A program made the translations under genes and the position numbers. Below, in pieces: positions 13,772 through 20,326 of a stretch of DNA of 64,000 nt; position 1 is the stretch's first letter; every line of letters begins with the position of its first letter. The DNA is from Leptolyngbya sp. FACHB-321 (GTDB lineage: Bacteria > Cyanobacteriota > Cyanobacteriia > Leptolyngbyales > Leptolyngbyaceae): assembly GCF_014695975.1 (NCBI RefSeq), contig NZ_JACJPI010000040.1:1-64000 (forward strand). The letters are read 5' to 3'. A model generated the notes under the pieces. The model was not told where the DNA came from. It saw only the letters and a program-made list of their open reading frames with translations, and made no database searches.

Positions 13772-14335
13772 ATGACTGCCGAGGTTTTGGTCGAGAAAAA
13801 GAAATTAGCAAAGCCACCGCTAGAGATTTATCGTCTAGGCGATCGTGTTTTGCGCCAGCCCGCTAAGCGCATTGCTAAAGTTGATGCTGAGATTAAACAG
13901 CTCATTCGTGAAATGCTGCAAACGATGTACAGCGCTGATGGTATTGGGCTAGCAGCACCGCAAACGGCTGTAAACAAGCAGCTCATTGTCATTGACTGCG
14001 ATCCAGAAGAAGCTGCCACGCCACCCTTGGTTTTGATTAACCCGGTTGTAAAGCAGGCAAGCCGTGACCTATCGGTGACTCAAGAAGGGTGCCTCAGTAT
14101 CCCGGGGGTTTACATGGATGTGAAACGACCGGCTGCGATCGAAGTTTCCTACAAAGACGAACACGGTCGCCCGCAAAAGCTGCAAGCTACAGGACTACTA
14201 GCCTGCTGCATCCAGCATGAGATTGATCATCTCAACGGTGTTCTCTTCGTTGACCGAGTAGAGAATGCACTGTTGCTAAACGAAGCGTTGGCTAAACACG
14301 GCTTTTCAGCACAGGCAGTTAAGTCCATTGCCTAG
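13772..14335 (+). CDS. def: Peptide deformylase
   Basis: GIGLAAPQ, EGCLSIPG and QHEIDHLNG motifs. Confidence 0.96.
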   Translation: MTAEVLVEKKKLAKPPLEIYRLGDRVLRQPAKRIAKVDAEIKQLIREMLQTMYSADGIGLAAPQTAVNKQLIVIDCDPEEAATPPLVLINPVVKQASRDLSVTQEGCLSIPGVYMDVKRPAAIEVSYKDEHGRPQKLQATGLLACCIQHEIDHLNGVLFVDRVENALLLNEALAKHGFSAQAVKSIA

Positions 14336-14775: not shown

Positions 14776-16191
14776 ATGACGGGAACGGATCGCTACACAA
14801 CATTTTTGCGGCTGTTACCGACTGGTGACAATGCTGGAGAACAAGCCCGCTATCCACTCTCAACAACGGAGAGTGTTGTACTTGGGCGTGATCCACACTG
14901 TAACGTGGTTCTTGATCCGCTTGTGCATCGTGCAGTATCGCGGCGGCACGCAGAGGTGAAACCCATTCTTGGGTTCGAGTCACCTGCTGGCAACTGCTTT
15001 TGGCAGCTTTGCGACCTTGCCAGCGCAAATGGCACTTTTTTGAATGGAGAGCGGCTGAAAGATTGTCAGGTACTGCAACCGGGCGATCGTATTATCCTGG
15101 GGCAGGGTGGTCCTACTTTTGTCTTTGAATGCCAGCCAAAGGCTAATCCTGCTCAACCCCTAACGCCGGCCCCAGCGTCAAGCAACCCACCAACTGCAAC
15201 GCGACGAAAGCGAACCGCTGCTTCCACCCCACGGTTGTCAGCAACCAGCCCGCCGCCCCGCCGCCGTGAACCAGATGCTATTAGCCTGACGCAGCTCTTC
15301 CCCATCCTTTCTACAGGGCGACAGCTAACCCACAAAGCCTATCTGCTGCCGGGCGGCATTACTGTCGGCTTTGTCGTGCTCATGTTTGCGGCTGTTGGCA
15401 ATCCGCTAGTTTTCAACTTGCTGTTGGCGGCTTACCTAGCTGGTGCAGCGTATTACTTCGTCTATGAACTGTGCGGCAAGCGTAAGCCGTGGTGGATTCT
15501 CGCAGGCGCAGCTTTAGTCACGCTGTTATTGCTGGTTAGTCCTGCATTGACGCTGTTTGTCTTTGTTTTTCGGCAGGTGTTACCCGGCGAGTTGCCCACG
15601 GGTGATACTCCAGTTGCCTTCCCAATACTGCTCATCAAGATGTTTTTTGGCGCAGGACTGATGGAAGAGCTGCTAAAGGCAGTGCCAGTCTTTGCGGCAT
15701 ATTTTCTAGGTACACAGTTGCGATCGCCCTACCGAGAGCGTATCGGCGTTTGGGAACCGCTGGATGGCATTTTGCTGGGCAGTGCATCAGCCGTTGGCTT
15801 CACATTACTAGAAACGATGGCACAGTACCTACCTGAAGTGTACAAAGCCACGTTGTCGTCTGGCGAAGGTGCGGCTCAACTTGCTAGCTTGCAACTGTTG
15901 ATTCCACGTGTTCTGGGTTCGGTAGCAGGGCACATGGCGTACAGCGGTTATTTTGGTTATTTCATTGGGTTAAGCGTGCTGCGATCGCGCCGTCGCTGGC
16001 TTATTCTGGGCATTGGCTACCTTACCTCTTCTGGTCTGCACGCCCTCTGGAATACGGTTGGTAGCATTAGTCCCGTTTTTCTAGCATTGGTTGGTCTGCT
16101 CTCTTACGCCTTTCTCGCTGCTGCTATCCTCAAAGCACGGGAACTGTCACCCACGCGATCGCAAAACTTCGCCACCCGCTTCTACAAGTAG
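14776..16191 (+). CDS. FHA domain fused to PrsW-like intramembrane protease
   Basis: N-terminal FHA (VVLGRDPHCNVVLD..VSRRHAEV..ANGTFLNG); linker; polytopic region with MEELLKAVPVF, LDGILLGSASAVGFTLLET and GSVAGHMAYSGYFGYF resembling PrsW. Confidence 0.85.
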   Translation: MTGTDRYTTFLRLLPTGDNAGEQARYPLSTTESVVLGRDPHCNVVLDPLVHRAVSRRHAEVKPILGFESPAGNCFWQLCDLASANGTFLNGERLKDCQVLQPGDRIILGQGGPTFVFECQPKANPAQPLTPAPASSNPPTATRRKRTAASTPRLSATSPPPRRREPDAISLTQLFPILSTGRQLTHKAYLLPGGITVGFVVLMFAAVGNPLVFNLLLAAYLAGAAYYFVYELCGKRKPWWILAGAALVTLLLLVSPALTLFVFVFRQVLPGELPTGDTPVAFPILLIKMFFGAGLMEELLKAVPVFAAYFLGTQLRSPYRERIGVWEPLDGILLGSASAVGFTLLETMAQYLPEVYKATLSSGEGAAQLASLQLLIPRVLGSVAGHMAYSGYFGYFIGLSVLRSRRRWLILGIGYLTSSGLHALWNTVGSISPVFLALVGLLSYAFLAAAILKARELSPTRSQNFATRFYK

Positions 16192-16239
16192 TTTTTGGTC
16201 GAATGTACACTACTGCACAAGCATCGAGATGTTTTCAGC

Positions 16240-16809
16240 TTTGCTATAAGCTAACCCGTAAATGCTGATGGCAACGCGTTACAAGCTTATTTGGATAGAC
16301 GACCTTCTGAGAACCCAAATTCACGGATTTACAAGGCTAAAGACGATGTAGCTAAAGCTGTTTCCATATACTTAGAGAATAAAAGGCAGCAAGAAGCTTC
16401 CTAAAACTATCAATCTTTGGCTTACGCCAAGATGCTATGAAACTAACAGCTTTCTAGCTCAGATTTTTGCAAACCAGCCCACACCAACTTCAACAGACTC
16501 AATCATTGTTATCTTGACACCAAGTTTGCTATAAGCTAACCCGTAAATGCTGATGGCAAAGCGTTATAAGCTTATTTGGATAGACGACCTTCTGAGAACC
16601 CAAATTCACGGGTTTACAAGGCTGAAGACGATGTGACCAAAGCTGTTTCCATATACTTAGAGAATAAAAAGCAGCAAGAAGCTTCCTAAAACTATCAATC
16701 TTTGGCTTACGCCAAGATGCTATGAAACCGACAGCTTTCTAGCTCAGATTTTTGCAAACCAGCCCACATCAACTTCAACAGACTCAATCATTGTTATCTT
16801 GACACCAAG
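16240..16809. repeat. Two tandem ~285-bp direct repeats
   Basis: 16240-16524 and 16525-16809 align end to end with roughly 11 substitutions by eye; the second copy contains the 3' end of the Mrr-like gene. Confidence 0.92.
16255..16404 (+). pseudogene. Possible truncated ORF remnant in the first repeat copy
   Basis: PVNADGNALQAYLDRRPSENPNSRIYKAKDDVAKAVSIYLENKRQQEAS* with no start; the equivalent frame in copy 2 has an internal TAA. Confidence 0.3.
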
Positions 16810-17604
16810 ACCTAGCTCTTTTAAGCGTTCAACTAACTGTTCGCCGTCTATTAAATCAATCGGTGGTGCGCCGTCTCGTGTAGCTTCTTTAATCGCGTCT
16901 CTAGTGAATGTACCAGTTGTAATAAACAAACCCTTATCAGTACGCCCTTGCATCGCCCCACGAAAGTCTCGAATTTGACCTGCTGTTACTGACCCCTGAT
17001 AGCGTTTGCATTGGAACAGCACATGAAAGCTTAAGAAGCCGTTAATACGAGCAATTCCGACACCATCAATGCCACCATCGCCAGCTTTGCCCGTAACCTG
17101 TACCTGGATAAAACCAGATTCACGTAATAATCGCTGTGCCAAACGCTCAAATGCAGATGGATCAAGCGACAGCAGTGTTGTGTGAAGTTCTTGGTGCCAC
17201 GCAAGCGCTTCTAAAGCTTCGATCGCTCCAACAGCTTCATCTGATGAACCCGAAGAGGCAGACTTATTTTTGTCAGCATCCCGAACTGCTCTAACAATCT
17301 CTTTAGCATCAAGATCAGCGAGATTGATAGAAGTTGAAATTAAAGACCAAACACCACGTGCTGAATTTTGCAAAAGCCCATACTTCTTAAGATACGTTCG
17401 GCTCCATGCAAGTCGGTATTCAACCTCGCTTTGTGATGTACTACCATGCAGAATCTCAAGTACTTTGTTAGAGAGGCTAAGAAGCTGCACTACTTTTTCA
17501 TAAATCTCCTCAGTCGTACCAGACCCACCCAAAAGTTGTAAAGCCTGAATTGTCGGCAGAAGCATTGAGTCAAAGGTTGGAACTGAGGAAGCAGATCGCT
17601 TCAT
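16744..17604 (-). CDS. Mrr-like restriction endonuclease
   Basis: GDGGIDG...FHVLFQCKRYQGSVTAGQIRDFRGAMQGRTDKGLFITTGTFTRDA, the Mrr catalytic D-(Q/E)xK pattern; N-terminal winged-helix-like region. Confidence 0.9.
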   Translation of the reverse strand: MKRSASSVPTFDSMLLPTIQALQLLGGSGTTEEIYEKVVQLLSLSNKVLEILHGSTSQSEVEYRLAWSRTYLKKYGLLQNSARGVWSLISTSINLADLDAKEIVRAVRDADKNKSASSGSSDEAVGAIEALEALAWHQELHTTLLSLDPSAFERLAQRLLRESGFIQVQVTGKAGDGGIDGVGIARINGFLSFHVLFQCKRYQGSVTAGQIRDFRGAMQGRTDKGLFITTGTFTRDAIKEATRDGAPPIDLIDGEQLVERLKELGLGVKITMIESVEVDVGWFAKI

Positions 17605-17760
17605 GTAGAAATCTCTAAGTGGATTTATAAGGTACAGCTTTGTTCAATATAAATCGCGACTCAAAATATGCCATCTTTTTACGATCGCGCAGTCTCAACA
17701 TCCCACAGATACTTTTGTGGTGCTACCCTAAACCAGGCATAAAACTAGCTGACAACTGCT

Positions 17761-18429
17761 TTACTCTTCACTCTTTGCCTCTAGTTCAGCAATAGCATAA
17801 CGAGCGATCGCCAGGCTTAAACGAGCCTGTTCAACATCAGAAAGCGCGTCCCATTCAACCGAACGGACGCGCTCAAGAGTAGATTCAATGGGTGCGTCAT
17901 TACCTCGCATGGCATAGGCTAGGGGACGTGCTAATACGTGTAAATCGTCTTCTGCCAGATGAGGGAGTGCTTCTTGAACGCACTGTACGAGCTGATCGGC
18001 TAAAGAGATAGAGCTAGACAAAACTTGTTGGGCGCGAGTGGCGATCGCGGTCAGTAATTGCTGAGGAACCCGTGTAGCGAAGCGCTGAGTCAGTGTTTCT
18101 TGGAGGGTTGCAGTAGACCAGAGTTGATTTACCTGAGCAAAGAACACATCAGAACGGGTAGCAACTTCGGCGGCGTTCCAGTCATCCAGGGGTAAGGCTT
18201 GTTCTAAGGCTGCAAAAAAAGGTTCTGCTTCAGGAGCCGCTGGATTCCAGACGTAAGGAATGGTAGCCTGTGGGTCTTCTGCGACTGTGAACTGATCTTC
18301 AGTCAACGGTTCGCCGTCCTTCCAGGCACAAGCAACACCTTCTGCATGCAGCAATGCTGCCCACAAGGCTTGCTCAACCTTAGCTCTTGAATTGGCTTGA
18401 TCGTCAGAACACATTACCTTACTTTCCAT
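17761..18429 (-). CDS. Uncharacterised protein downstream of CHAT-FHA gene
   Basis: Frame to 17761; ATG at 18429 (MESKVMCSDDQ) or 18411; no recognised domain. Confidence 0.6.
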   Translation of the reverse strand: MESKVMCSDDQANSRAKVEQALWAALLHAEGVACAWKDGEPLTEDQFTVAEDPQATIPYVWNPAAPEAEPFFAALEQALPLDDWNAAEVATRSDVFFAQVNQLWSTATLQETLTQRFATRVPQQLLTAIATRAQQVLSSSISLADQLVQCVQEALPHLAEDDLHVLARPLAYAMRGNDAPIESTLERVRSVEWDALSDVEQARLSLAIARYAIAELEAKSEE

Positions 18430-18598
18430 AGTGGGTTTCCTGCATACACTGAAAACAATGACCTCGTTGGTGTTACCTACAGGGGGATCACTGCCTGTTC
18501 CGCAACTCAATCTGATTTACGCCATCTGGCTGAAAAGTGACCACTCTACCATCAGTTTCCCCTTAAGCAGCAGTGCTTTCGGCTTCTGATATTACTCT

Positions 18599-20326
18599 TT
18601 AAATGGTGGGGCGAGCGCTAGATGCATCTAACGATGTCGTAAATTCCAGCACCTCATTTTGGGAACTGCCAAATTTTAATTGAGTGCCGGGTTGCAGGGG
18701 TACTTCCTGACGATGGACTTTGCGCCAGTTTCTGGAGCCCAGACCAGGCTCCAACATCCAAGTGCCAAAGCGCGAAAAATCTTCGAGAAAGTAGGATATT
18801 GCTTCATTGCTATTAGGCTGAGGCTGCCGACAAAAAATAACGGCGTGTTTGCGAGAAACTCCGCCCTGGTCTTCTTGTAGCACTAAATCGTTTTCACCTC
18901 GATCGCGACCGACTCGCATAAACCCGCTCTGGATGTGCCAAACTTTTGCAGTCACAAGCGATCGCAACGCTGCATCCGGCTTGGGCTGCCCCAGACGCGT
19001 GATGAGCCCTGGCATAGCGGTCAGACTACCCTCAAGCGGCTGCAACAGTTCGCCATCAAATTCGGGATGCATGTAGAGTACCGGCAGTGTCCAGGCTTGC
19101 TGGTTAAAGCGGTACAGCGTGAGCAGGTGCTGACGGGCAACCGCAACTGCCTGGTCGATCGGCACTCGTCCTGAGAGCGCTCGGGCAAATGCTTGAATAA
19201 AACTCAGCGCTTCTTCGTCGGTGATGGAATCACGCATACCTAAAACGGCAGGAACGCCATGATGAATCAGCACTTCTGCAAGGCTGCTACGCGGCATTGC
19301 CTGCGATCGTGATTCTGGTGCCACGGTAGAGTCAGCAATCGTTTCGTGGTCAGGTTGCGCGCCCCAGCAGGCATTAAAGACGGCTAGCTTTACCTGGCAG
19401 CGAGTAAGCACTTGCGCTAACTCAGTGCCATTCAAGGTCATAGCCGGTCGTAAAAATAGTAGTCCACCATCTGGAGCCGGAACCCCATGTCCTGCATAGA
19501 AAAAGACATTGTACGTCTGCTTCTCAAGCTGACTAATTAGAGCAGCAGGCGTGGGTTGCACGAGCGTATCCACCTGGCAGGGCGTAATCGTTGCGCCGCC
19601 AATGCCACTGCTGCCGGAGGTAGTTAGTAGGTGCGCCAGCACATTGGCTTCTTGTTCAAGCTGTAAGGTCTGTAGGGTTTCAGGTTGAACTGTGTTCGCA
19701 GAGCTTTGAGAGAAGCCTGACACGGGTTCAGAATCTTGACCCAGGACTAACAGAATTTTGAGAATGTTGTCCGATCGCAGTTCTGGCAAGGAACGGACAT
19801 CACTCGTTGTACGGCTAAACAAGAGTTGCTGTTGGAGCGAAATGGGTTGTTTGCCCGCGCCATCCTGCATAATTTCCCACGGCAGCGCCACCAAATTGGG
19901 ATCGCGAACTTCTAGCCGCAGCCGCAGCGGTTTTGATTGACCCATGGCAATCCCCTGACTGTGATTGAGGCTACCCTGGATGGGACCATCAAAAAGCCAC
20001 TGCCAGAGGCTCATGCCCAGGCTCTGCATCAACCGACCCGATTGGCTTACAGGCGCACCGGGAGTCGGTGGCGGTGTTTCTAGTGGCAAGACAAGATCAG
20101 GGGGCAGTTCATCAACTTGTGAAACTTGCGGCACGTCCGGTAGGCTTCTGGCAGAAAACATTTCTTGCCAGCCCAGCCAAAGATGCTGTAAGTTGTCTGA
20201 CCACAGACAGTCGTGCAAAACGTAGCCCCCTGGGTATGGAGCTTGGGTGACATGAACCGCATAGTGGTTGGCGGTGCGTAAAGGTGCGATCGCCAAATTC
20301 AAGCAGGGAATTTCAGACAAAGACAT
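18599..20326 (-). CDS. CHAT (caspase-like) protease with C-terminal FHA domain
   Basis: NVFFYAGHGVPAPDGG..LAVFNACWGA His/Cys motifs; C-terminal RVGRDRGENDLVLQEDQGGVSRKHAVIF FHA motif. Confidence 0.88.
   Translation of the reverse strand: MSLSEIPCLNLAIAPLRTANHYAVHVTQAPYPGGYVLHDCLWSDNLQHLWLGWQEMFSARSLPDVPQVSQVDELPPDLVLPLETPPPTPGAPVSQSGRLMQSLGMSLWQWLFDGPIQGSLNHSQGIAMGQSKPLRLRLEVRDPNLVALPWEIMQDGAGKQPISLQQQLLFSRTTSDVRSLPELRSDNILKILLVLGQDSEPVSGFSQSSANTVQPETLQTLQLEQEANVLAHLLTTSGSSGIGGATITPCQVDTLVQPTPAALISQLEKQTYNVFFYAGHGVPAPDGGLLFLRPAMTLNGTELAQVLTRCQVKLAVFNACWGAQPDHETIADSTVAPESRSQAMPRSSLAEVLIHHGVPAVLGMRDSITDEEALSFIQAFARALSGRVPIDQAVAVARQHLLTLYRFNQQAWTLPVLYMHPEFDGELLQPLEGSLTAMPGLITRLGQPKPDAALRSLVTAKVWHIQSGFMRVGRDRGENDLVLQEDQGGVSRKHAVIFCRQPQPNSNEAISYFLEDFSRFGTWMLEPGLGSRNWRKVHRQEVPLQPGTQLKFGSSQNEVLEFTTSLDASSARPTI

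Follow-up and report, generated by a model that had tools for sequence, protein, structure and literature searches.

The closest described relative of the locus reported here is the HetF-PatU3-HetZ system of Anabaena, which functions in heterocyst development and cell division. PatU3 binds HetZ, the binding needs the C-terminal part of HetZ, and the patU3 gene lies directly downstream of hetZ (PMC7377430). According to a review, HetF cleaves PatU3 (PMC12288457). The window analyzed here, positions 1-64,000 of contig NZ_JACJPI010000040.1 of Leptolyngbya sp. FACHB-321, contains in the region 14776-20326 the gene for a protein that joins a CHAT domain to a C-terminal FHA domain (to be referred to as CHAT-FHA) and, next to it, the gene for a small partner protein. 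We estimate a probability of about 0.6 that this locus encodes the protease and the partner of a second, paralogous switch of the HetF-PatU3-HetZ type, in which HetZ-related protein 2 would take the place of HetZ. A sequence-only reading of the region had described two FHA-protease fusions, an Mrr-like nuclease and an uncharacterised protein, and the open reading frames and domains of all four genes are confirmed. The nearest named relatives, compared by CHAT-FHA, are Tildeniella nuda, Lyngbya sp. HA4199-MV5 and Stenomitos (83-91% identity).

The CHAT-FHA protein scores 82.9 bits against the Pfam CHAT family (PF12770, gathering cut-off 24), and its FHA part scores 38.5 bits against PF00498 (cut-off 20.7). 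The catalytic pair, His280 in a YxGHG motif and Cys320 in an NxCW motif, is invariant among 33 orthologues. With this domain and an intact dyad, CHAT-FHA is predicted to be a caspase-like cysteine protease. A Foldseek search with the CHAT half finds SAVED-CHAT, separase and caspase-8, the best match being 8tl0 at 1.2e-7, with 7zoq also among the matches, and the remainder of the CHAT-FHA model matches many FHA domains. The model is of moderate confidence (predicted local distance difference test score, pLDDT, of 69). In the FHA domain, Asn479 and Ser491 are invariant in the same orthologues and Arg474 and His494 are conserved in at least 90% of them. From these conserved phosphopeptide-binding residues, a phosphothreonine-reading role is predicted for the domain.

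The nearest NCBIfam model to CHAT-FHA is HetF (3.7e-47, 161 bits), with the match confined to the CHAT part. Against the window protein, the scores of HetF relatives reach 149 bits, and those of the other CHAT proteins of the same genomes only about 26 bits. On these scores, HetF is the closest characterised relative of CHAT-FHA. The protein is not HetF itself, however. Its score is far below the cut-off of the HetF equivalog (NF045509, 1200 bits), the HetF model is aligned solely over positions 72-385 of 836, the C-terminal half of HetF is absent with the FHA domain found there instead, and a separate HetF relative is encoded in the same genome (G000:C80).

The best start of the partner gene is the ATG at 18429, which is conserved in 98% of 116 homologues. 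No family of Pfam, NCBIfam or PADLOC matches the partner, and none of PHROG does so significantly. Its structure model is helical (pLDDT 81) and has no membrane segment. The model has no match in the Protein Data Bank better than E 1.0, and a search of solved chains with the partner profile found none. A globin reading, from Pfam matches in single members (best 3.9e-4), was rejected, as the model has no globin match. Three motifs are conserved, YPWNP, DLxVLARPxAYAMR (containing Asp162, Arg168 and Arg175) and WxxLSxxEQAR. The partner alignment has no stretch that was conserved enough to query the genome collection.

The first lead to the relationships of the partner came from weak matches of its profile to an open reading frame of about 330 residues in three genomes of one family. 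This frame is PatU3, because the frame preceding it is HetZ (656 bits, cut-off 550) and the published position of patU3 is just downstream of hetZ. In the HetZ loci from 30 genomes, the hidden Markov model (HMM) of the partner matched solely the frame adjoining hetZ, that is, PatU3. An alignment-to-alignment comparison of partner and PatU3 with hhalign gave E 5e-5 over 99 columns, with control values of 0.35 for HetZ and 0.097 for CHAT-FHA. With deeper profiles (116 partners and 22 PatU3 sequences), the values were E 2.5e-6 and a score of 48.0 over 97 columns, compared to a best E of 0.0056 and a best score of 26.3 among 200 column-shuffled profiles and E values of 0.065-0.37 for real controls. 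One match of the partner HMM, to L195 (8.4e-6), is a response regulator/adenylate cyclase; it was a false positive and was removed before the final profile comparison. In the reverse direction, the PatU3 HMM has 72 matches among 2,627 open reading frames, 42 of them partners and 30 in hetZ loci, with none elsewhere, and it matches the window partner itself at 1.4e-5. The two proteins also have the same order of elements, with a PW motif, a helical region (LVxxVxxLxP), an arginine and a final helix. By these profile comparisons, the partner is a distant PatU3 homologue. True PatU3 adjoins hetZ (L203-L232 and L287-L290), and the partner adjoins CHAT-FHA instead. The partner (about 200 residues) is shorter than PatU3 and lacks its C-terminal domain.

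The distribution of these proteins was determined in 386 cyanobacterial genomes, each at least 90% complete. Full-length CHAT-FHA is present in 87 genomes, the partner in 89 and both in 86 (phi 0.971), and the two thus occur together with hardly an exception. The two genes are adjacent and co-directional in 67 of the 86 genomes and unlinked, with both present, in the other 19. Sixteen further genomes have no partner gene next to CHAT-FHA in the locus, and 14 of these carry it elsewhere. The two genes are neighbours in at least 13 families, and joint presence or absence varies inside groups as well, for example in family f6 and genus g19. There are four exceptions: all that is left in G005 is a stretch of about 56 FHA residues just upstream of the partner gene, a piece of CHAT-FHA is located at a contig end in G119, no CHAT-FHA is found beside the partner gene in G219, and the partner is absent from the draft assembly of G249.

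If the partner is indeed related to PatU3, its distribution should be followed by that of a HetZ-like protein. HetZ-related protein 2 (NF037965) resembles HetZ mainly in its C-terminal half and shows helix-turn-helix and weak sigma-like matches. It is above the cut-off in 89 of the 386 genomes, 88 of which have the partner (phi 0.985) and 86 CHAT-FHA. The phi values among the three proteins are 0.971-0.985, and all three are present in 85 of the 90 genomes that have any of them. CHAT-FHA, the partner and HetZ-related protein 2 are therefore co-inherited in a near-obligate manner. Moreover, this triad and that of HetF, PatU3 and HetZ segregate as units. HetF and HetZ are present in three genomes (G033, G044 and G131), two of which (G033 and G131) were checked for PatU3 and have it, and the second triad is wholly absent from all three. 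In five others (G091, G101, G107, G127 and G139), the second triad is present and both HetZ and HetF are absent.

Several further observations concern the members of the two triads. In G054, G079 and G005, a HetF relative is found without most of the CHAT region, and HetZ itself is absent (G005 has HetZ-related protein 2 alone). Loss of the HetF protease seems to go with the absence of HetZ and PatU3. HetZ of G022 (C1:3382045-3383067, plus strand) lies inside an open frame of 943 residues, a possible HetZ-PatU fusion. Short extra frames of 176-215 residues in G101 (C1:1717-2208), G139 (C3:1490786-1491277) and G186 (C1:2076759-2077235) correspond to HetZ-related protein 2 in its N-terminal half alone and are possibly stand-alone N-terminal domains.

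Among 116 partner sequences, Asp162, Arg168 and Arg175 each show 99% conservation. All three are lost from the partner of G219, where CHAT-FHA is gone, while the PW and WxxLS motifs are kept. The partner of G223 is much more divergent, CHAT-FHA is present there, and the three residues are all kept. This single case suggests that CHAT-FHA recognises its partner through the motif with these residues. Arg175 is located in a loop before a variable segment in the partner model and is aligned with an arginine that is invariant in PatU3, which makes it a candidate for the site of cutting or docking.

In the mechanism that we propose, the PatU3-like protein would most likely bind and restrain HetZ-related protein 2, as PatU3 does HetZ. 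A signal from a Ser/Thr kinase, read as phosphothreonine by the FHA domain, would recruit or gate CHAT-FHA, and in many relatives it would probably be erased by a PP2C phosphatase encoded upstream. CHAT-FHA would then inactivate its PatU3-like partner, by cleavage or in some other way; a cut might fall close to the invariant Arg175, which lies in the loop that follows the conserved helix. HetZ-related protein 2 would thereby be freed and would change the transcription of its target genes. That this is an old cyanobacterial switch, gated by Ser/Thr phosphorylation and working also in families without HetZ or HetF, is a tentative proposal, to which we give slightly less than even chances.

Several points weigh against the second-switch interpretation. 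The gene for HetZ-related protein 2 is unlinked to the CHAT-FHA locus. In the family of the window organism (G000, G056, G197 and G301), this protein lacks its last 55 or so residues, which fall within the part that HetZ needs for PatU3 binding. The truncated protein of the window genome is encoded at L263:1275-2243 on the minus strand (G000:C72), and the remainder is well conserved in all four genomes seen; the downstream step may therefore be altered in the window organism. Partner and PatU3 are alike over a stretch of roughly 100 residues, with 18-25% identity, and the C-terminal domain of PatU3 has no counterpart in the partner. The loss of the motif in G219 is one case, and no conserved threonine stands out in the partner. 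The phi values were computed without a species tree, and the Fisher p-values overstate independence. The PP2C phosphatase is present in 35 of the 36 cyanobacteria tested, with or without CHAT-FHA.

Rather than being cut by CHAT-FHA, the partner could serve it as a dedicated adaptor, inhibitor or activator, with the substrate elsewhere (HetZ-related protein 2, or a cell-division or envelope protein). Co-inheritance and adjacency fit a regulatory subunit equally well, and the placement of the invariant partner residues in one motif would suit a docking surface. CHAT cut sites can also be non-conserved, as for Craspase and Csx30 (PMC11106740). However, the homologue PatU3 is a reported substrate of HetF (PMC12288457), and the partner outlasts the decay of CHAT-FHA in G005 and G219, which points to a role of its own beyond the protease. 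We consider this arrangement unlikely, if still plausible.

For the neighbourhood of the two genes, 108 CHAT-FHA loci were compared (a few genomes contribute to both sets of loci). The common order is ndhM, a zinc-ribbon PP2C phosphatase, CHAT-FHA, the partner, a convergent FHA-PrsW gene and def. Among the loci that extend far enough to show the neighbour in question, the partner is next on the same strand as CHAT-FHA in 80 of 96, FHA-PrsW is convergent beyond the partner in 41 of 87, and the PP2C gene is directly upstream of CHAT-FHA in 57 of 96. The def gene follows FHA-PrsW in many loci and is probably not a functional part of the system. In the window itself, a PBP2 gene is upstream of CHAT-FHA. 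The features of the window are given in the table.

Table. Features of the CHAT-FHA locus and its surroundings in the window
Feature	Position	Strand	Evidence or remark
CHAT-FHA, predicted caspase-like cysteine protease with C-terminal FHA domain, 575 aa	18599..20326	-	Pfam CHAT 3.6e-23, FHA 1.6e-9
PatU3-like partner, 222 aa, helical	17761..18429	-	Profile-profile match to PatU3 and co-occurrence with CHAT-FHA
FHA-PrsW, FHA domain fused to PrsW-type intramembrane protease	14776..16191	+	Pfam FHA 8.7e-16, PrsW 6.3e-34
def, peptide deformylase, housekeeping, end of conserved block	13772..14335	+	Pfam Pep_deformylase 9.9e-53
Mrr-type nuclease	16744..17604	-	Mrr_cat 7.5e-31, Mrr_N 3.2e-16
285-bp tandem duplication, 16240-16524 and 16525-16809, 96% identical	16240..16809	.	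Overlaps 3' end of mrr

The sequence-only reading had taken the co-location of these genes as meaningful, and this stands for CHAT-FHA, the partner and FHA-PrsW, which form an old cyanobacterial locus, at the frequencies just given, but not for Mrr, which is shared at this site by L103 and L105 only. Its suggestion of a phospho-reading proteolysis locus is borne out by the conserved FHA domains and by the two FHA-protease fusions, which share the locus across many families. The linked Ser/Thr kinase that it had envisaged was not found among the recurrent neighbours in the 108 loci, and in many relatives a PP2C phosphatase is directly upstream. No gRAMP/Cas7-11 effector gene was found among these neighbours either. 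The PP2C phosphatase is linked but not specific, as it is near-universal irrespective of CHAT-FHA, and it was rejected as an obligate component. Where it lies upstream of CHAT-FHA (L061-L180, for example L088:5457-7733), it has an N-terminal zinc ribbon with four cysteines.

The FHA-PrsW protein scores 117.7 bits against Pfam PrsW (cut-off 23.5) and 18 bits against the Bacillus-type PrsW equivalog (NF033739, cut-off 225). It is a conserved but looser neighbour of the CHAT-FHA/partner pair; the linkage spans many cyanobacterial families, and its co-occurrence with CHAT-FHA has a phi of 0.77 in 146 genomes. A two-step cascade that includes the PatU3-like protein might be imagined, in which one phosphothreonine signal recruits both CHAT-FHA and FHA-PrsW and the two proteases act in turn on a membrane-bound factor. 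The convergent, adjacent position of FHA-PrsW and this co-occurrence are in its favor. In addition, PrsW of Bacillus cleaves the anti-sigma factor RsiW, and FHA-PrsW fusions have been predicted to be signalling proteases (PMC3482391). However, FHA-PrsW is found without CHAT-FHA in five genomes and is absent from eight that have CHAT-FHA, it is on the opposite strand, and the model of the PatU3-like protein has no membrane segment. Such a cascade is improbable.

The Mrr nuclease was rejected as a component by synteny and distribution, against the earlier proposal that it belongs to the module. Apart from the window, two near relatives (L103 and L105) are the only ones with the mrr gene at this site, and its distribution is only weakly correlated with that of CHAT-FHA (phi 0.25-0.30). 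In L106, which has no Mrr, the partner and FHA-PrsW genes are 37 bp apart, and L101, also without mrr, retains a remnant of the same 285-bp repeat. On this sequence evidence, the duplication is the scar of a rearrangement at the mrr insertion. As Mrr is missing from L106, the insertion is confined to the window, L103 and L105, and the duplication overlaps the 3' end of mrr, we judge the nuclease to be a recent lineage-specific insertion and a bystander.

Anti-phage defence or abortive infection, with CHAT-FHA as the effector and Mrr as an accompanying nuclease, is very improbable as well. CHAT proteases do act in the defence systems Craspase and SAVED-CHAT, to which the structural matches 8tl0 and 7zoq point, and Mrr matches restriction-type PADLOC models. 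However, PADLOC has no match for CHAT-FHA, the partner or FHA-PrsW, and Mrr is absent from the locus outside the two close relatives. The CHAT-FHA locus is uniform within clades, single-copy and located beside housekeeping genes (ndhM and def) in a stable chromosomal neighbourhood, which is not island-like. The patchy or mobile distribution that marks defence systems was not seen for CHAT-FHA or the partner in the 386 genomes. The defence module of the sequence-only reading is thus not upheld. Its own reservation that the parts may be unrelated applies to Mrr and, in the window, to PBP2, and the PP2C phosphatase occurs regardless of CHAT-FHA, but chance neighbourhood is refuted for CHAT-FHA and the partner, with their phi of 0.97, co-inheritance even when unlinked and adjacency in at least 13 families, and as an account of the locus it merits almost no credence.

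No description of the recurrent convergent linkage of FHA-PrsW and CHAT-FHA was found in the literature searched, nor one of the CHAT-FHA protein, the partner or HetZ-related protein 2 as a functional unit in the mostly non-subscription literature searched. The paralogous protease switch has apparently gone unrecognised so far, and its novelty is provisional. If the interpretation is correct, the heterocyst circuit and the CHAT-FHA triad would be paralogous copies of a more general module of caspase, restraint and regulator, which bears on the origin of the HetF-PatU3-HetZ developmental pathway. Few bacterial caspase relatives have known substrates, and here a testable triad of enzyme, partner and regulator would be available in nearly a quarter of the genomes sampled. 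The interpretation would also offer a function for proteins now named merely 'hypothetical' or 'HetZ-related', and it indicates that a CHAT protease may take phosphothreonine as a control input. It suggests a logic in common with Craspase, that of a CHAT protease, a restraining partner and a sigma-like regulator.

The locus can be compared with four described systems. As in HetF-PatU3-HetZ, there is a CHAT protease of the same subgroup with an intact dyad, a partner homologous to PatU3 and a protein of the HetZ family that shares its distribution. In contrast, CHAT-FHA has its FHA domain in the place of the C-terminal half of HetF (transmembrane/TPR), the shorter partner is encoded beside the protease rather than beside a HetZ-type gene, and the triad is found also in families without HetZ or HetF. 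The FHA-PrsW neighbour has the same architecture as the FHA-PrsW intramembrane proteases already predicted to function in intracellular signalling (PMC3482391). The SAVED-CHAT protease filament of type III CRISPR is the best structural match of the CHAT half, but CHAT-FHA has an FHA instead of a SAVED domain and no CRISPR neighbour. In its manner of working, the locus would resemble Craspase of type III-E CRISPR (the TPR-CHAT protease Csx29, with Csx30 and RpoE), as a CHAT protease with a dedicated partner and a sigma-like regulator that is freed by cleavage, which for the present locus is a proposal. Unlike Craspase, the CHAT-FHA locus has no CRISPR components, and the signal would be a phosphoprotein and not a target RNA.

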